Of a stretch of 64,000 bases of DNA, positions 4,493 through 63,043 are shown one piece after another. Positions within the stretch are counted from its first letter, which is position 1, and every line of letters begins with the position of its first letter. The stretch is from Aldrovandia affinis (taxonomy: Eukaryota; Chordata; Actinopteri; Notacanthiformes; Halosauridae): the NCBI GenBank assembly GCA_029706075.1, contig JAINUG010000072.1, positions 4,062,799 to 4,126,798 on the forward strand, read 5' to 3'. The notes beneath the pieces were generated by a model, which did no database searches, was not told where the DNA came from, and worked only from the letters and a program-made list of their open reading frames with translations. The position numbers were made by a program, and so were the translations under genes.

Positions 4493-4556
4493 TACATTTA
4501 CATTTACCATATTCATTTAGCAGATGCTCTTATCCAGAGTGACTTAAAACACATTG
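4493..4556 (+). repeat. SINE 3' tail fragment
   Basis: The motif 'tagcagatgctcttatccag' followed by 'agtgactt' is the 3' tail of the SINE family seen elsewhere in the window. The tRNA-like head is missing, so this is a truncated copy. Confidence 0.7.
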
Positions 4557-9649: not shown

Positions 9650-10806
<1,157 letters not shown>

Positions 10807-15446: not shown

Positions 15447-15597
15447 ACATTGTACATTTTAAGCATTTAGCAGACGCTCTTATCCGGAGCGACGTACACA
15501 GTTTTACATTTCCTTACATGCGATCAATTTATGCAGCTGGATATTTACTGAAGTAACTCACTGAAGTAACCCTAACCATTACACTACACTACAATAA
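15447..15597 (-). repeat. SINE copy, minus orientation, degenerate head
   Basis: Read on the + strand it begins with the tail 'tagcagacgctcttatccgg' and later shows 'tgcagctggatatttactga', the family body in reverse. The tRNA-like head is reduced to 'cattacactacact'. Confidence 0.7.
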
Positions 15598-23572: not shown

Positions 23573-24319
23573 CTACAGTTTCCTGGCTGTCTGGGCCCAG
23601 GCGGTGACCTCCTGCCCGGGGGGCCCCTCGGAGTCCGAGCTCCATCGTGAGTGTCCCGCCGTCTCGCCCCTCTCTCCCCGCTCCTGCCTGTCCGCCCCCT
23701 TCCTGTGCCCATGCTCCGCCTCCCTGGGGGCTGTCCTGTCCCGCCTGGGGCGCTCTTTGGTGTCGGGCGCCCCCCCGGGTTTCCCCGCCTCGGGTACGTC
23801 CAGACTCAGGTACGCGGACACCGGCCGTAGTTCCCTGCCCTCCGTGGCGAGCAGCTGAGGGAAGGCGGGGACGGAAGTGGCCGAGGAGGAGGAGGATGAT
23901 GAGGAAGAGGAAGAAGAGGACGAGGAAGAGGACGGAGAGGACGAGGCCTCCTCCTCGTAGATGGAGAAGGGCAGCCGCAGGTATCGGCCGCCGTAGAAGC
24001 AGCAGCAGCAGGCCTGCAGGCACTCCGGGGCTTCTCCGCGGACCAGCCGGAAGCGCTTGCGGTAGGGCCCCGGGGGGCCGGAGCAGGCCCGGGCTGTCTG
24101 CGGGGCCTCCCAGGGGCAGGCGGGGCCAGGGGTGGGCCCGGGGGCAGGGCCTGGGGGAAAGCACCAATCGCTCTGCAGCAGGATCTCGGCCCGAAGCCGC
24201 CGCAGCAGGTTGTTGACGAGGACGGAGCGCCGCAAGAAGGCCTCGGGGTCGTCGATGAAACGCATCTTCTCCAGAGACAGACGCAGCACGTGGGCGCGCT
24301 CCTCCAGCACCGGCGCCAC
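23573..24319 (-). CDS. SERTAD4: SERTAD4 last coding exon with SERTA domain
   Basis: The acceptor is gcatcctgcag, with the exon starting GTGGCGCCGG at 24319 in phase 0. It encodes the SERTA domain, the Cys-rich segment, the serine run and the tail, ending at a stop at 23573-23575. It is very GC-rich (CpG-island-like), which produces long antisense frames. Confidence 0.92.
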   Translation of the reverse strand: MAPVLEERAHVLRLSLEKMRFIDDPEAFLRRSVLVNNLLRRLRAEILLQSDWCFPPGPAPGPTPGPACPWEAPQTARACSGPPGPYRKRFRLVRGEAPECLQACCCCFYGGRYLRLPFSIYEEEASSSPSSSSSSSSSSSSSSSSSATSVPAFPQLLATEGRELRPVSAYLSLDVPEAGKPGGAPDTKERPRRDRTAPREAEHGHRKGADRQERGERGETAGHSRWSSDSEGPPGQEVTAWAQTARKL

Positions 24320-26267
24320 CTGCAGGATGCAAAAAATGCAAAAAATGTATCACGTGCTTTGTGTTTTCACACTCAGGCCAGCTAGGCCAAGCTAAAAGAT
24401 TAACCAAGTTGCACCTAAAGTCTCATGTCTCAGACTGCCAGCCTGTTTGCTTGTCTGTGGCCAAAGGGGGCAGTATTGTATAATTGTTACATAACTGGGC
24501 TTGTTACGCAATGGTTGTCGGTTCGATTCCCAGATGGGGCACTGCCGTTATACCCTTGAGCAAGGTACTTATCCTGAATTGGTTCAGTAAATATTCAGCT
24601 GTATAAATGTATTATATGTTAAGAAATGCAAAGAAATGTTAAGCTGTGTAAATCAGTCTGGATAAGAGTGTCTGCTAAATGCCTGTAAATTCCACCATGG
24701 GGTGTGGAGGTGCCACCGCCACTGTAAATCCTCTTACATAAAATATAAATATAAATAATGCTCATAGGTTGTTCATGAGGTGGTATCCTGTTTTAACTTC
24801 CAATTCAAATGACGCAGCTTTGACTATTATTAGATGGTGTAATTCATTATAATTTCCCTGTCATCACTTCATAAGCTGTTTGACAACTTGTTCTTTATCG
24901 TGTTCTTCACTAAAATGCTTCAGTCTCTCTCCTCATTCATAAATGTGGCATGGTATTCGCACATGGCTGTAGTTTCTGAAGATAAGAGGTCTCTATGGTA
25001 CTTACTGTCTGAGGGCAGTATGGAAACCTCACTGATCTCTATGGTACTTACTGTCGGGAGGTAGTATGAAGGCCTCACTGGTCTGTATGGTACTTACTGT
25101 CTGGAGGTAGTATGGAAACCTCACTGATCTCTATGGTACTTACTGTCTGGCAGCAGTTCCTGCTGAGTATTCTCTGTGGTACTCACTGCCTGACAATATT
25201 CCTTGAAGCAAAGTGCTCTCTATGGTATTGAATACTGCTCTGGCAGTTGCTCCTGAAGCTGAGTAGTCTCTATGGTACTCACCGTCTGGCAGTAATTCCT
25301 GAAGCAGAGGTGTGGGTCCTCGTCCTCTACATACTTCCTCTTAAAGTAGGCAATCCTCGACATGGTCACATGATCAGGCAGTCTTCTGCAGTGGGGCTCT
25401 GGAGGACATTAAAGTATGTGAGTAGAAATGAAAACAGATACAAGCAAAAACAAACTGATTCTTAATCTTCTCTTTCTTACACCAATCTGAAAGATCTAGA
25501 AGATGTCAGGCTTTTGTTTCCTCACAGGCCCTTCCTTGAACTAATGACACTGAGCAGGACTGAGCTGGGGCCTTGCTCCTGGGAGGTCAAAGGACAAACA
25601 GAGACCAAAAGATCCAGCTGAACACAAACAGTGCACCCTCTAACAGCAGAATATGGAATGAAAAGGAAAAGGAGAAGGAACTTTGCTGTTGGCTAAGGGG
25701 TGTCAAATTCTGTCATTAGTCAGGCATCATTATCTTTGGTGGCCATCTTTTCCACTTAAGTCAGCTCATTAGTGCCTTAATTGAACAGGATTCACCTCGT
25801 CCCTCAGACATAGGCCAGCGCTCCAGGTCATTGGCCTGCTTTAGTGTAAACGTGTCCGCTGAAGATCCATGGGTTTCTGGTTTCCATTCCAGCCCAGGTC
25901 CTGATTACTGAACTCGGTGAAGCCATTGATCGGATTGGACCATCTGATCACATGTCCTTCCAGTTGCCCAATCAGCCGCTGGTGGAAGGGTATCTCTAAA
26001 GCCCCTCAGACACTGTGGGTCTCCAAGACCAAGAGTGGATGGCACACGGGGGCCCACTCAGAAAGGGGCTCGGCCAATGAGAGAGCGCGGAGGGTCGTCC
26101 CTACCCTTCGCCAGCTGCTCCACGGCGCACTCTAGTGGTGAGGGGCCGGAGACGCAGCTCTTGCTGCAGCGCTCGGATTCCCAGACGGGATGGAACTGCG
26201 GGAGCGCGGGGTCCCCTTCAGAGGCGGCGTGGTCGCAAAACGGATTCATCGACAGGACCAGGGTCAT
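23573..26267 (-). CDS. SERTAD4: SERTAD4, SERTA domain-containing protein 4
   Basis: Three coding exons (26105-26267, 25283-25398, 23573-24319; 163+116+747 bases) join in phase to 341 residues; the human protein is of similar length. The start MTLVLSMNPFCDHAASEGDP matches the known vertebrate SERTAD4 N-terminus. Exon 2 encodes the conserved IAYFKRKYVEDED block. Residues about 98-145 form the SERTA domain (LEERAHVLRLSLEK, FIDDPEAFLRRSVLVNNLL). A PYRKR motif and a Cys-rich ACCCCFYGGRYLRLP segment follow, then a serine run at about 219-239. The last 95 residues are Arg/Glu-rich and do not resemble the human C-terminus. SERTA proteins are mostly nuclear transcription co-regulators linked to cell-cycle control; the specific role of this member is poorly known. 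The ATG lies 17 bases after a splice acceptor, so at least one non-coding exon lies upstream. The same-strand position downstream of SYT14 fits human 1q32.2. Confidence 0.93.
24466..24690 (+). repeat. SINE inside SERTAD4 intron
   Basis: The tRNA-like head runs through 'ggttcgattcccagatgggg', then 'cccttgagcaaggtactta', and the tail is 'ggataagagtgtctgctaaa'. The copy is nearly full length and opposite in orientation to SERTAD4. It sits between coding exons 2 and 3. Confidence 0.85.
24991..25290 (-). repeat. SERTAD4: seven-unit tandem repeat carrying 5' splice sites
   Basis: Units start with 'ctctatggta' or a one-base variant at 24991, 25037, 25083, 25129, 25172, 25218 and 25268, mostly 46 bases apart. 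On the minus strand each unit carries a donor: the first four have GTAAGT, the fifth GTGAGT, the sixth a decayed GTATTC, and the seventh is the genuine exon-2 donor GTGAGT. Units 4-6 also repeat the last coding bases of the exon. Reading through the real donor meets an in-frame TAG in the sixth unit. Confidence 0.88.
25283..25398 (-). CDS. SERTAD4: SERTAD4 second coding exon
   Basis: The acceptor is aatgtcctccag, with the exon starting at 25398. The 116-base exon encodes EPHCRRLPDHVTMSRIAYFK and onward to RNYCQT. The donor is CAGACG|GTGAGT at 25283/25282. The conserved YFKRKYVE block confirms the frame. The exon's last 25 bases and its donor are repeated in the tandem array immediately downstream. 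Confidence 0.92.
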
Positions 26268-26324: not shown

Positions 26325-26553
26325 CAATTACATTATAGGAATTTAGCAGATACTCTTATCCAGAGCGACTTTACAGTTTGCATTTTTCTTTTTACATACA
26401 ATCCATTTATACAGCTGGATACTTACTGAAGAAATTCAGGTTAAGTACCTTACTTAAGGGTATAATGACAGTGTCCCACCTGGGAATCAACCCTGCAACC
26501 TTTGTGTTATGAGCCCAGTAACATAATTATTATACTACACTGCTACCCATATA
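26325..26553 (-). repeat. SINE, minus orientation
   Basis: The + strand shows the reversed family: the tail complement 'cagatactcttatccagagc', then 'atccatttatacagctggat', then the head complement 'cccacctgggaatcaaccct'. It lies just upstream of the first coding exon of SERTAD4, in its 5' intron. Confidence 0.85.
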
Positions 26554-42117: not shown

Positions 42118-42340
42118 TGTTGTGCAACACGGTGGTGTCGTTTAATGGTTAGGGATCTGTGCTTGTAACTTAGAGGTTGCAGGTTCAATTCCCAGGTGGG
42201 GCACTGCCATTGTACCCTTGAGCAAGGCACCTAACCTGAATTGCCTAAGTAAATATCCAGTTGTATAAATGGAATGTACAGTATGTAAAGAAATGTGAAC
42301 TGTGCAAAAGGGATAAGAGCATCTGCTAAATGTAAGTCTA
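42118..42340 (+). repeat. tRNA-derived SINE, near full length
   Basis: The head is 'tggtgtcgtttaatggttag' and box B 'ggttcaattcccaggtgggg', followed by 'cccttgagcaaggcaccta' and the tail 'ggataagagcatctgctaaa'. Confidence 0.88.
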
Positions 42341-56523: not shown

Positions 56524-59500
56524 AAAAAGGAAGAGAGAAAGAGAAAGACAGAAAAAATACAGAAAAACAGACAGTGTCCAACATTGATAGTGGGGAGAAG
56601 AACCAGCAGATGTGTTGGTCTGACGGCAGAGACTCACCTCTGATAATATAAACCTGTCCACCTATCAAGTGTTTTAGACAACAGAACAGCCCGTCTGACA
56701 ACAGGGGTTGGGAAGCAGTAAAAGAAACAATGACCAAGATGTCAATAGTTGGGTGAGAGATAAGGAGACAGGAGAAAGAGAGAGACAGGGTCAAAAGGTC
56801 AAACATCACAAAAGGTTAACAAGAAGGTTATTGTTGGAGAAGACTGATTGGAGTTTAGATGTTCTCAGGTAAAGACAGAAGGGGGAAATTTGGGGAATTT
56901 TTTTCAAGCAGGTTGAGCTCAGGAGAGAGGGTTGGCTCCAGCTGACCATGGCCCACACTAATCAGCTGATCCAGGGTCAGCCTCATTCTGACAGGGTGAC
57001 CTCGTGCACATGGATCAGCTGATCCAGGGTCAGCCTCATTCTGACTGGATGACCTTGTGCACAAGGATCGGCTGATCCAGGGTCAGCCTCATTCTGACCA
57101 GATGACCTCGTTCACAGGAATCAGCTGATCTAGGGTCAGCCTCATTCTGACCAGATTACCTCGTTCGCAGGAATCAGCTGATCTAGGGTCAGCCTCATTC
57201 TGACCGGGTGACCTCGTGCACATGGATCAGCTGATTCAGGGTCAGCCTCATTCTGACTGCATGACCTTGTGCACAAGAATCGGCTGATCCAGGGTCAGCC
57301 TCATTCTGACCGGATGACCTCGTTCACAGGAATCAGCTGATCTAGGGTCAGCCTTATTCTGCTTGCAACATAGGGCAAAATGGAATGGTCGTGAACAAGA
57401 TGAGAGCCCGCCCGAGACACTTCAGATGGAGCTTGCTGTAACATCCCACCACAGCTGTTAAGATCCCATAATCATTTACACTTGTAATATTGGCCCTTCA
57501 TTATCACTTTGTTTTACCTGAATAACCTCTAAAACCTATTCTGGTAACATAATTGGCTTAGGTCAAGATCTTACATGGAATACAGAACAAGATATTTAAC
57601 TCACATCCATATATAATTTGAGCTACGGTATTAATGCAGAAAATATTAAGAGCACTTCATTCTTTATTCTGTTATTGAAGATTAAGCTTCTAACATTAAG
57701 CCTTTGTCTGCCAAGATGCCTCACAATGGCCATGAGTTACTGCAAGACGGATTTACAATTGGAAAAAGCAAATTGGAACCCAGAGGTCGTCATGCTGTCT
57801 GTAACTCATTTAACAGAAAGCATGCACAGCAAAACATTGAAGTAATGGTCATATATTAGCAACTTGGAATGAGCGACAGGAGTCTTTCCTTATCCTAGTC
57901 CTCTAAGGAGCTTTGATACTGTCACACACTAATTAGTCACAAACACATCTCTGCAATTAATTAAGTCAGTGGTTGGCTAGAGTATGAGAACATACTGTAA
58001 ATCACTAAGGGGACTCAAACAGTTGCATGACAACAGTAAGTTGAAAACAAAAATGCATAAATGATAAAAGAAAAGATAATCTGAAAAGATGCCTGTTTTG
58101 ATCACTGGGGAGCTGAGCTCCTTTTTGGAGACATGTGAAACAAAAACCCGGAACGCTCGGGTATCCAGGTGAAACACCTGCGCGGAGACTGCCTGCCGCT
58201 TTAGGGTACTTACTGGGTGGCTTGTTGGCAGCCAGGTTTTTGAAGTGGCTGCCCCTGATGATCTCCACTGAGAGTCGGCCCGTGGTGGCGTTGTAGACCA
58301 ACCCCACCAGGATCTCCGGCGTGGAGCCCTGGCCCGTCGACTGGAAGGACGAGGCGCTCTCGCTGCACGACATGTCCGAGATGCTGACCTGGGACTCGCA
58401 GCCCTGCTGGCAGGCAGACAGACAGACAGGCGGACACGCAGACCAACTGCTTTTACCTCGGAGCAAGCACAACACAATCATTCTCTTGTAACTTTTTTCT
58501 TTATTTTTATCATTCTCTTGTTGTTGTCTTGCATTTGTATTGTTATTTGCATTCCTTTTGAGGACCCAAGGAAGACTAGCTGTCACCACGGTGGCAGCTA
58601 ATGGGGATCCTAATAAAACAATAAGCAACAAGAGATGTCTGTAAAACACCAAATTTGACACCATTGCTAGCTTTTTATGCTAAACAAGGTCCTTTTTTAA
58701 AAACGGATTTTCTTAATTACAGTCCAGCAAGTTAGCACTTTAAACCAAATCTGATCATACAGCCATGTCACGGCCATACTATATGTTTAGATAATAAAAA
58801 CATTTAACTGCTCGTGAGAATGGACAAAACTTGATTTCCCCCCTATAGGTTCACATCCTTGAACAGCAAAATTAAATATTATATATACAATATAATGGGT
58901 TTGTGTTCTGTTGTGGCAGACATGTTTCTGGACCGTGTGGTTGACATATTTAAAGGTTTTCCGATTGAGAGGCAGGAACACTTTGCACTGCGCTGCTTGA
59001 AATTAATATACAGACCACTTTGATGGGGTTCATACCAGGTTTTTAATAAGCATTGAGGCTCATTGACAGTCTGTGCATGCTTTAGATTTCCTGTTGCTGA
59101 GCACTGCACCCTTGTGTAAATATTTCAGCAGGGCGTTAAGAAGTTTGGGCATCAGTAATGACGTGGACCAGACAAGTCCCTACAGCAGGCCCTGAATACT
59201 GACAGGGGTCCAACAGTTGGCATATTGTTCCAAATGCTGTTAGTATGTTAAAGTTAAATGACACATTATATGACGAGCATAGATGGCCTTTTATCATCAA
59301 TATCATCCATGTTGTACTGATGTGTACTACAACAGTCATCTTAAAGATCTTATAGGATTCCTCTCCACCTCAGTTACCAACCATGCACACCTACAGTGTA
59401 GACATGAGCATACAGAACATGCATTGATACACGCTAATCACACATGCAAACATCCGTGCCCAGCTACTTTAAATCCACATGCACGTATAGGCACACAAAT

Positions 59501-61636
59501 AACACCACATATGCATGCACACGTATGCATGAACACCCCCAAACCCACACATGCATGTGTGTACCTAACTACCCCTCCCACACACACACACACACAAAAG
59601 GGTGTCAGCATGCTGTACTGATGCATACTCATGGTTTTCAAGATCCGTCGAGATTCTTCCCCACCTTAATTACAATCCATGCATACCAGCACACACACAC
59701 ACACACACACATGCACGCACATACACAACACATTCATGCACGTACAAACACATGCAAACACACATAGACAAATGCACACGCATGCACAAGCATACGCACA
59801 CATGCACACACTCTTGCACATATAAGCACGCACACACACACACGCATCCCCCAGCCCTGTCGCCCCCCACCCACCCCAAACTCACCGGTAGCGTACAGCA
59901 GGGGTCTAAAGTGACAGGCACGGACATCCTGCCCTGCAGGTTGAGCTTGGTGAGGTAGAACACCTTCTCTCCCAGCACCTTCTCCTTCTTCATGCGCCGC
60001 ACGCTGTAGAGGCGGAAGCGCACAGCGTAGTTGCCGATCATCTCCGTCTCGACGTGGCTGAACTTGAAGGTCTCGTTGAACACCGGGCACGGGCCCTTCT
60101 GGATGCCCGTCTTGGCCCGCTGCTTTTTCGTGGGCAGGAGCACCAGGTGCACCTGCCAGGAGATGTTGCCCGTGCGCTTGAGCGCCGGTATGTCCGTCAC
60201 AGCCGTCACCGTCACCATCAGCCGCTGCTCCCCGGAGTCGTAGTCGAACACCACGTCCAGAGTGCCATACTTGGCGGCCGGCTCGGGCTCGTAGCCCTTG
60301 GGGAGCTGTGCTGCCGATCCGCGGGCCGACATGTCCTGGCGGGGGGAGAGGGACTGCTAGTTTTGGGGGAATGAGGGTTCATGAACCTGAAATGAGCTGT
60401 CAATGAGCTTACTTATATGAATCAATCAAAAGCTCATAGAATATACACAATGATTGGTTCCACTGATAGCTCAAGGTAGCTCGGCTTATGTTTGGGTTAA
60501 ATGACACCTCATCATTAATCACAGCATGTATGTCACACATCCTGTGTGTCACAAATGATGCTTCATCATGGCCGTATCTACCATTGAGGACACCGAGGTC
60601 ACGACCTCTGTATTTTTTCTGAGCTGTATTTTTTTACATACTGATTCAGTGTAATACTGAATAAAAGTGGTGAACTACTGTACATAAAATGACTTCACTT
60701 CGGTATAGCAAAGATTTTGTATAAAGCCAAGATTGCCGCTTGCTTGCCTGATCACCATCATCGTCATTACTTCCGTGTGTGTGTGGTGGTGAAGTGGACC
60801 GAGCAGGCGGATCTCGTTATTATTACAAAATCTTTGTTCAGCAAAGATGACGCAGTGATGCTCGGGACGACTTTGCTGCACAGCGGGAGTTGTAACTCAG
60901 ACTGCTGATCTGAAGCCAAGCGAAGCATGATGTAGGTGTAGAGATCTCTCATGTTATAAAAAAGTAGACTTGTATTATAACCAGATTAATGCTATTCATC
61001 TCCAGAGATCATCTATCGACAACTACTTTGTGTGTGGTTTTGTATAGTCGCTAGCCAAATGTAGCTGTCTCTGTCTAGCTGACTGTTATACGTACCACTT
61101 TTTAGTCAGACATTAAGGTGCCGATAGGCTAATTTAGGTTAACATTAGCTAACGTAGCATACATTGACAGTGGTGATAGGCACAAAGCTAGCTACATTTT
61201 AATGTACATTTTCATGACCTCTGTAATTCTCGACTCCAGGATACGGTCCTGTGCTTCATTGCCCTAGGAGAAAAGTCTCAGTAAAAGCACAACCGTCCCA
61301 AACACAACAAAGACCAGTCCAGTGGTCACACATTCATCCATATAATGAATTGGATTTACATAGCTTTGTATAGCAATCTTTTGTGGATCTCAAAGTGCTT
61401 TAGAGTGGGGTAGGGACAGTACTAATGTGTAGCACCAGTCTGGGTGATGCGTAACAGCCATTTTGTACCAGAATCATTCCCAACACAACAGAGGATTTAT
61501 TTATTGTGTGATATACAGATATCCTTGCCTATTGTACCATCATCCTTTCCTATATGCAAGTTGGGAGCCCATCTTGGGCAATGAACAATGTCTGTGAACA
61601 ATGAGACTTCCTGCAGTACAATAATACTGTACCACT

Positions 61637-61678
<42 letters not shown>

Positions 61679-63043
61679 GCATGTTTGCGCACATGCCTGC
61701 GTGTGCGCATGTATGGGGGTGTGTGTGGTCTCTGAGCACTGCTTGGGGGAAGAAATGTTCAGCTTATCTGTGGCCGTGATGTTTGCCGGTGTCTCATCCC
61801 TCCAGATAGCAATGTCTCTTCCACATATATTACTTCCACACTTCCACCCAGTGTGCTGTATAAATGGGTAGCACCTCATTTTTGACTAGCAAGCTCACAA
61901 CAAAGCTATTGATCACAGCTGATACACTTCTTTTGCAAACTGGGTTTTATAATAACTATTTTATTTCGACCTGCCGTCTCTGTGAAGCGAATGCATTGTC
62001 AGTGGGGGCTCATGAATAGAAAAAAAAAAATCAAAAAGGAAAAAAACACTCTGATGGTCTGGAGCACAATTCTACCACATAAATAAACTTTTCCTCCCTG
62101 GTTTCCATGGCTGCATTTCTCTCTGTGTTGTTGCTATGGTTTCTCCATTGTTGAACGCGTTCCTTGCAGTGTGCAGCGTTTGTTCTGTCTGATCTACATG
62201 GGAAAGCCAGCATGGTTCCGCCGTCTCTCCTTTTTAAGAGTATATCACGCAATGTTCATGTGCAGATGGCAGGGCTCATTCCCTTTCGCTCACCACCCCA
62301 TTTGCTGCCCTGCAGAGTATTCTGCAGCGGTCCCTGTCCACCTAACCGTCCATATTCTCTGCTTGTTGGACCTGCAAGCACATCCTCCTGCTACATTGAA
62401 CTGAACTAAAAGGTGCTTCTGTATGTCATAAGGCTTGGGGTTAGTGTAAGTGCACTTCGCTGTTTGTGTGGGGCGCTGCCATTGTGCCTTTGAGCAAGAT
62501 ACATAATTGCTTAAGTAAATATCCAGCTGTATAGATGGATTGTGCATAAAGAAATGTGTAAAAGCTGTGTAAATTGCGCTGGATAAGAGCGTCTGCTAAA
62601 GATCCTGTAACGCTGCAAGGCTTGCGGTTTGCGTAGCACCACATGGTTGTCTTCGGCTTGACTTCTGTGTTCAATTCTGTTGTGGACAAACACAGAAAAA
62701 CTTGCAGGTACAACTTTGTTCAAAACGAGTGTTCTCGGGGTGGAACAACGAGACTCGGGACGGACACAGACCTCGGGGCTGAGCACGGCCGTGCTGTCGC
62801 TGGGCACGTCCTCCTCGTAGCCCTTGGTGAGGTAGCTCTCCGTCTCCTGGCCCGCGCTGCCCTCGCTGGGGCACTTGCCGTAGGAGTGGGGCGGGCTGTC
62901 GCTGCAGTGGGACAGCCCGCACTTGGCGTCGCCCATGTCCGAGGGCGTGCAGGACATGCGCGGGGACCCGTCCTCGTCCTGGTAGGGGGGCGGCTGCAGC
63001 TCATCCAGCGGGGGGGTGCGCCTCATCCTCTGGATGCAGTTCA
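52229..63043 (-). CDS. SYT14: SYT14, synaptotagmin 14 (partial, 3' four exons)
   Basis: Four exons (272, 450, 190 and 314 bases) join in matching phase to 407 residues. They contain a linker ending STAVLSPE, a C2A domain ([20 protein letters not shown] through YLTKLNLQG), a short connector with [11 protein letters not shown], and a C2B domain ([20 protein letters not shown] through [13 protein letters not shown]). Synaptotagmins are membrane-trafficking proteins. SYT14 is one of the Ca2+-independent members, and both C2 domains here lack the usual cluster of loop aspartates; for example the C2B loop reads [12 protein letters not shown]. The N-terminus with the membrane segment lies beyond the right edge. 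Human SYT14 has been linked to a recessive spinocerebellar ataxia. The close paralogue SYT16 is the main alternative, but linkage to SERTAD4 favours SYT14. The gene may be one of two teleost copies (a or b); this cannot be decided here. Confidence 0.95.
52641..52800. mobile_element. MITE of the 'ggggtgtccaatcttat' type in SYT14 intron
   Basis: The ends 'caggggtgtccaatcttata' and the complement of 'ataagattggatacccctag' form inverted repeats. It matches the element at 32385 and sits about 100 bases upstream of the last coding exon. Confidence 0.8.
52805..55390. other. SYT14: SYT14 intron sequence
   Basis: Mostly AT-rich unique sequence with homopolymer runs near 53700. No exon or clear repeat family is visible. 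Confidence 0.5.
55398..55612. mobile_element. palindromic hAT-like MITE, diverged
   Basis: Same family as 14099: the arms carry 'ccatcgagggccgagggtat', with a centre near 'caaccagggaggggacct' and an inverted right arm ending 'gatggaatgagtttgacagc'. No exact target duplication is visible. Confidence 0.8.
56449..56517. repeat. (GA)n microsatellite, long and pure
   Basis: About 34 uninterrupted GA units in the SYT14 intron, followed by a purine-rich stretch to 56570. Confidence 0.95.
56961..57365. repeat. SYT14: 53-bp minisatellite, about 7.6 copies, in the SYT14 intron
   Basis: Units begin 'atcagctgatccagggtcag' or a close variant at 56961, 57014, 57067, 57120, 57173, 57226, 57279 and 57332, exactly 53 bases apart every time. 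Variant positions recur in order: units 1 and 5 have 'gtgcacatgg', units 2 and 6 'gtgcacaag', units 3 and 7 'gttcacagga'. A four-unit (212-bp) block has therefore itself been duplicated. Confidence 0.95.
58214..58403 (-). CDS. SYT14: SYT14 exon: connector and start of C2B
   Basis: The acceptor is ctgcctgccagcag. A three-base alternative (cag|cag) would add one Gln. The exon encodes [20 protein letters not shown] to [11 protein letters not shown] plus one base, and the donor is CCA|GTAAGT. Confidence 0.93.
58555..58620. repeat. LINE-type 3' end fragment
   Basis: The sequence 'gctaatggggatcctaataa' preceded by 'gaagactagctg' matches the form of 3' ends of L2/Maui-like LINEs in fish. It lies between two SYT14 exons. 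The class is assigned from memory of such tails. Confidence 0.5.
59308..59690. repeat. diverged direct duplication in SYT14 intron
   Basis: Bases near 59308-59400 and 59608-59690 align with motifs such as 'tgtactgatg', 'ccaccttaattac/ccacctcagttac' and 'ccatgca', about 300 bases apart. The second copy runs into a (CA)n repeat. Confidence 0.5.
59690..59845. repeat. (CA)n-rich microsatellite next to SYT14 C2A exon
   Basis: Interrupted CA runs end about 40 bases before the donor of the C2A exon at 59886. Confidence 0.85.
59886..60335 (-). CDS. SYT14: SYT14 exon: C2A domain
   Basis: The acceptor ccccccgccag is followed by GACATGTCGG at 60335. Exactly 150 codons, phase 0 at both ends, encode [20 protein letters not shown] and the full C2A domain. 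The donor is CCG|GTGAGT at 59886/59885. Confidence 0.94.
60340..62425. other. SYT14: SYT14 intron sequence
   Basis: Unique sequence plus a (GT)n run at 61640-61673. No additional exon is needed, because the exons at 62772 and 59886 join in phase. Confidence 0.6.
62430..62610 (+). repeat. partial SINE in SYT14 intron
   Basis: The head is degraded; the body 'gcctttgagcaagataca' and the tail 'ggataagagcgtctgctaaa' remain. Opposite orientation to SYT14. Confidence 0.75.
62772..63043 (-). CDS. SYT14: SYT14 exon: linker before C2A
   Basis: The acceptor cccacacacag precedes the exon start at 63043. Two bases complete a codon, and 90 codons follow: [20 protein letters not shown] and onward to STAVLSPE. 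The donor is GAG|GTCTGTG, weaker than the other donors. The Pro/Ser-rich linker [17 protein letters not shown] is conserved with mammalian SYT14. Confidence 0.9.

Follow-up and report, generated by a model that had tools for sequence, protein, structure and literature searches.

Minisatellites that multiply a 5' splice site (donor) at an exon border are known from the human genes ABCA7 and IFI6 (6-16, G1P3), and the IFI6 array has a unit of 12 bp. Here we describe a comparable array at the end of coding exon 2 of SERTAD4 in the fish Aldrovandia affinis, found in a window of 64,000 nt (positions 4,062,799 to 4,126,798 of contig JAINUG010000072.1; coordinates below are positions in this window) within a 1.22-Gb genome assembled in 2576 contigs.

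In ABCA7, a variable number tandem repeat (VNTR) in intron 18 has a 25-bp unit that begins at the GT of the exon 18 donor, and it is highly polymorphic, with about 12 to 427 copies (PMC5954066). Splicing at the next unit's donor was reported at 2 +/- 1%, independent of VNTR length, with a frameshift and a premature stop as the result, whereas skipping of exon 19 did depend on VNTR length (PMC5954066). For IFI6, a passage citing the original work (Turri 1995) describes an exon 2 minisatellite with multiple donors, two downstream units of which are used, giving three mRNA species (PMC4526556). Two further systems are comparable. The coding repeats of human UBC contain an array of dual-specific splice sites, in which one element is both donor and acceptor (PMC10809524), and tandem genomic duplication has been described as a source of intron gain (PMC4974935, PMC3443670).

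Grouped by anatomy, the SERTAD4 array is a known kind of feature, belonging with ABCA7 and IFI6. As in the ABCA7 repeat, the array flanks an exon directly and its unit carries the donor of that exon. In contrast to ABCA7, the SERTAD4 unit is about 46 bp long, is present eight times and includes about 30 exon-side bases, which in unit U7 are the last coding bases; it is also known from the DNA of one genome. As in the cited account of IFI6, a minisatellite multiplies donors at an exon border. However, the downstream IFI6 donors appear in reported mRNAs, whereas an extension of SERTAD4 exon 2 would meet an in-frame stop. The likeness to UBC, as that source presents it, is that the tandem unit carries a splice site, but the SERTAD4 array shows donors only: instead of an AGGT core with a donor and an acceptor in each unit, its intact copies read CA/GTRAGT (the slash marks the splice junction). 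Dual-specific (AG/GT) or ratchet sites are not supported, since position -1 of every intact copy is an A. As in the intron-gain cases, splice signals have been copied by tandem duplication, but no new intron is evident, and an existing SERTAD4 intron has acquired extra donors instead. Among the papers listed on intronic minisatellites and decoy splice sites, no title concerned a donor array, and among those listed for SERTAD4 none concerned a splice-site repeat; we do not claim that a fish case of this kind is absent from print.

The array occupies positions 24950-25312 on the minus strand, which is the strand of the gene. A unit of about 46 bp containing a 5' splice site occurs there eight times: one is the genuine end of exon 2, five further copies retain GTRAGT, and in two the donor has decayed. 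In the order of the transcript, the units are U7, U6, U5, U4, U3, U2, U1 and U0.

25267..25312, minus strand: unit U7, exon tail and genuine donor
25277..25282, minus strand: genuine 5' splice site ACG/GTGAGT, placed by frame continuity, with the best weight-matrix score and U1 pairing among the six
25216..25266, minus strand: unit U6, exon-like tail, donor decayed; upstream part 18/24 identical to U7
25220..25222, minus strand: in-frame TAG, met by any extension of exon 2 past the genuine donor
25171..25215, minus strand: unit U5, exon-like tail, intact donor GCA/GTGAGT (G at 25186)
25128..25170, minus strand: unit U4, exon-like tail, intact donor ACA/GTAAGT (G at 25143)
25082..25127, minus strand: unit U3, upstream part unlike the exon tail, intact donor ACA/GTAAGT (G at 25097)
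25036..25081, minus strand: unit U2, upstream part unlike the exon tail, intact donor ACA/GTAAGT (G at 25051)
24990..25035, minus strand: unit U1, upstream part unlike the exon tail, intact donor ACA/GTAAGT (G at 25005)
24950..24989, minus strand: unit U0, exon-like tail, donor decayed; 29/38 aligned bases as in U7, flush with the array end

As in donor-bearing minisatellites of the ABCA7 and IFI6 kind, a unit longer than about 10 bp is repeated head to tail at an exon-intron border and holds the genuine donor, and five of the seven other units retain GTRAGT. A 22-base core (up to 3 mismatches) matches six times in the window, where dinucleotide shuffles predict 0.01 matches. A first-pass annotation of the window had listed the genuine donor and five extra ones, and every one of them coincides with a minus-strand GTRAGT (first G at 25282 for the genuine site, then 25186, 25143, 25097, 25051 and 25005). 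It had also proposed a seven-unit array of about 46 bp with one decayed unit, the units nearest the exon repeating the last coding bases of exon 2. The array and its period stand (Tandem Repeats Finder gives a period of 46 for 24990-25150, with score 259, and for 25128-25309, with score 158), as do the decayed unit at 25216-25266 and the repeated coding bases, but the count must be raised by an eighth, decayed unit at 24950-24989. The match of this unit, U0, to the exon unit has a score that was equalled in 8 of 3000 trials when the rest of the intron was shuffled by dinucleotides, and in 0 of 2000 when the 90-base tail was shuffled by single nucleotides. Tested against the seven units, the same 90-base tail matches U7 (0/2000) and U6 (p 0.0025), and the other five give p 0.09-0.61.

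Two kinds of unit make up the array. Exon-like tails are present in U7, U6, U5, U4 and U0, whereas in U1-U3 (24990-25127) the ~24 bases outside the donor module cannot be recognised as homologous to that tail (9/9 comparisons, p 0.19-0.72). U1-U3 nonetheless share a nearly identical donor module with the exon, and U4 agrees with U1 at 22/22 bases.

The gene model into which the array is set consists of three coding exons, which when joined encode 341 aa in a continuous frame, without a stop.

26105..26267, minus strand: SERTAD4 coding exon 1, ATG at 26267, donor GTAGGG, frame running on into exons 2 and 3
25283..25398, minus strand: SERTAD4 coding exon 2, 116 nt, peptide end ...YCQT, acceptor CTCCAG/AGCCCC
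23573..24319, minus strand: SERTAD4 exon 3, coding part with the SERTA motif, acceptor CTGCAG/GTGGCG

The exon 3 product contains the Pfam SERTA motif PF06031 (E 1.9e-13), and the exon that precedes it is of the YFKRKY type, the combination that marks SERTAD4. We take the name from the human protein. It is backed by an open reading frame (ORF) with a C2 domain at 59670-60332 on the minus strand (E 1.5e-9), presumably SYT14-like given the human SERTAD4 neighbourhood. The genome holds two SERTAD4-like loci, with the paralog on contig C1224. From the YFKRKY motif to the end of the exon there are 22 aa in SERTAD4 and in the paralog, whose exon end is inferred, and the phase is equal. The paralog's intron after this exon measures about 108 bases in a count by eye, and the 550 bases examined around it contain no GTRAGT. 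Since exon length and phase are shared with the paralog, which shows no GTRAGT in these 550 bases, the position of the genuine donor appears to be older than the array.

The four GTAAGT donors had been expected to surpass the genuine one, which is true only over positions +1 to +6. With a vertebrate weight matrix and a U1 5' end that were both entered by hand, the order reverses over positions -3 to +6, where the genuine ACG/GTGAGT scores 9.47 bits, the four ACA/GTAAGT copies 7.07 bits each and GCA/GTGAGT at 25186 5.52 bits. Duplexes with U1 follow suit, at -10.8 kcal/mol for the genuine site, -7.0 for ACA/GTAAGT and -7.1 for GCA/GTGAGT. The gap in strength is due to the G at -1, which the genuine site alone has among the six; ACA and ACG both encode Thr. 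Between 24321 and 25398, nine sites reach at least 5 bits, namely these six and those at 25334, 25078 and 24737.

Using any of the copies would have one and the same outcome. The first stop after the genuine donor is the TAG at 25222-25220, which lies upstream of all five extra donors, so that each of them would extend the protein beyond residue 93 by an identical stretch of 20 residues and yield a 113-aa product that lacks the SERTA motif. As first proposed, a 5' splice site has been multiplied by the repeat, but because the stop is shared the array gives no graded proteins, and the staged variants that were envisaged reduce to one truncated product. From the stop to the junction there are 34 nt for the U5 donor and 77, 123, 169 and 215 nt for the next four. 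Nonsense-mediated decay generally requires 50-55 nt between stop and junction. By this rule, the mRNAs spliced at the U4 to U1 donors would be targets of decay, and the U5 product may escape.

The 300-base array matches only itself in the genome, with one haplotype visible. Genome-wide counts, which are lower bounds, give 13 matches to the 22-base core at up to 3 mismatches, of which 6 belong to the array and 7 lie outside it, where a reversed control has 11, and 5 matches to the upstream part of U1-U3 (3 in the array and 2 elsewhere) against 5 for its control. A dispersed element is therefore rejected: the array has a single match, and copies of core and spacer elsewhere do not rise above control. 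For the base rate, 20 stretches of 10 kb on six contigs, taken at regular rather than random places and unchecked for genes, were screened for minisatellites with a period of 15-100, a score of at least 100 and at least 2.5 copies that were not simple repeats. Twelve passed in the 200 kb sampled, covering 2947/200000 bases, and two of them carry at least four GTRAGT on one strand, one being a low-complexity, CA-rich array. Teleost genomes have on the order of 200000 donors. With about 1.5% of the sequence in arrays, we would expect tens to hundreds of donors to overlap minisatellites genome-wide, even if such overlaps are strongly depleted.

Two minisatellites may be set beside the SERTAD4 array. 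One, from the genome sample (stretch L015, 8687-8963), has a period of 83, 3.4 copies and four GTRAGT on one strand, with the repeated words ACAGGTGA and ACAGGTAA. The other, at 56960-57361 of the window, is cleaner (period 53, 7.6 copies, 88% matches, score 601) and lacks GTRAGT on both strands.

Because minisatellites are common in the genome, the array is confined to a single locus, the genuine site scores highest and ABCA7 provides a precedent, we consider it probable that this is an unremarkable minisatellite that began at the border of an exon, in which the genuine donor dominates and the extra sites leak at a low level. The minisatellite would have started when the sequence spanning the 3' end of SERTAD4 exon 2 was duplicated in tandem, each copy carrying a donor into the intron. 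In a second round, a 46-bp unit that joined the same donor module to a different upstream part, or new spacer, would have been amplified to give U1-U3. The array would then be mainly a product of repeat turnover, and the loss of the donor from two of the seven non-genuine copies (U6 and U0) is in keeping with this. Nearly all transcripts would use the genuine donor, which alone has a G at -1, and splicing at the downstream copies would be rare. An mRNA spliced at a copy would encode the 113-aa protein ending at the TAG and would mostly be open to nonsense-mediated decay.

Several observations speak against this account. The genuine donor is predicted to be unpaired with a probability of 0.27, compared with 0.53, 0.52 and 0.51 for U3, U2 and U1 and a background of 0.48; shielding of the copies by RNA structure, which we had considered, is not supported, since on these values it is the genuine site that should be less open. 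Intron-proximal donors can also win when site strengths are similar; a literature search on intron-proximal donor choice with U1 small nuclear ribonucleoprotein (snRNP) double occupancy returned no match. Across the six intact units, the last 16 columns, which belong to the donor module, vary less than the others (mean difference 0.075 versus 0.405; column permutation 9e-05, scan-corrected 0.0017). Within U7/U5/U4, 12/26 columns are variable compared with 2/16 in the module (p 0.042), and within U1-U3 8/30 compared with 1/16 (p 0.13). This low variation could mean selection on the donors. Shared recent descent of the module in U1-U4, together with constraint on the genuine site, probably accounts for part of the contrast. 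With a neutral decay rate set by the divergence of the upstream part, the survival of all three U1-U3 donors has a neutral probability of 0.15. In the four exon-like copies two donors survive where 1.68 or 0.80 are expected (P(>=2) 0.56 or 0.17), and the joint neutral probability for U1-U3 and these four is about 0.03-0.08. Donor retention is thus borderline with respect to neutrality rather than a clear sign of selection.

If these observations did reflect function, the array might work as a poison switch, in which substantial or regulated use of the extra donors lowers SERTAD4 protein through decay-prone or truncated mRNA. The single upstream in-frame stop common to all five extra donors suits such a switch, as do the four donors lying 77-215 nt beyond it (the 25186 donor, at 34 nt, could escape decay), the low variation of the donor module and the greater predicted accessibility of U1-U3. 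We nevertheless think it unlikely, as the genuine site is stronger, two of the seven copies have no donor, survival of the rest is borderline against neutrality and the 550 bases around the paralog's corresponding intron offer no GTRAGT.

The opposite view, that the copies are wholly silent relics without measurable splicing, seems to us quite improbable. The genuine site is both the strongest and the most exon-proximal, and two copies have already decayed, but five good hexamers survive, and the ABCA7 and IFI6 precedents include some use of downstream units. We are equally doubtful about a dosage control that depends on copy number, in which the extra donors, sharing one upstream stop, would leave the protein repertoire unchanged and instead add up to a tunable chance of a null SERTAD4 mRNA. 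There, the nearest donor, 34 nt past the stop, would escape decay and give the 113-aa product, and the change from ACA to ACG at the genuine site, silent because both encode Thr, would be a counter-adaptation whose G at -1 keeps this site ahead of its copies. A decoy zone, in which U1 snRNP would occupy the copies with no splicing taking place there and so affect intron retention, early polyadenylation or splicing at the genuine site, is very unlikely: pairing with U1 is possible over +1 to +7 at each intact copy, but it is weaker there than at the genuine site. An assembly artefact or a wrong gene model can be dismissed, since the units differ from each other in a way that a collapsed or stuttered assembly would hardly produce, even with one haplotype visible, and the frame, splice sites, SERTA motif and equal exon length of the paralog fit the model.

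The window holds other repeats as well. Two copies of a short interspersed-type repeat, at 24470-24688 (plus strand) and 26333-26543 (minus strand), are 77% identical over 219 aligned columns and sit in opposite orientation in the introns flanking SERTAD4 exon 2. Inverted repeats placed in this way could favour skipping of exon 2 or formation of circular RNA. The same repeat has further matches in the window near 42140-42332, 62469-62610, 27-193, 15463-15560 and 4514-4546. An ORF of 157 aa at 9971-10444 on the plus strand contains a DDE_3 transposase domain (E 3.7e-10) and is presumably a Tc1/mariner remnant.

The SERTAD4 array would be informative whether or not its copies are spliced. If they are used, nature has supplied a set of almost identical donors, each at a fixed distance from the same exon, with which the influence of donor position and of the -1 base on 5' splice site choice could be measured. 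If they are silent, the genuine donor holds against five close copies, with the G at -1 as the visible difference. Either way, the locus adds a fish case alongside human ABCA7 and IFI6.
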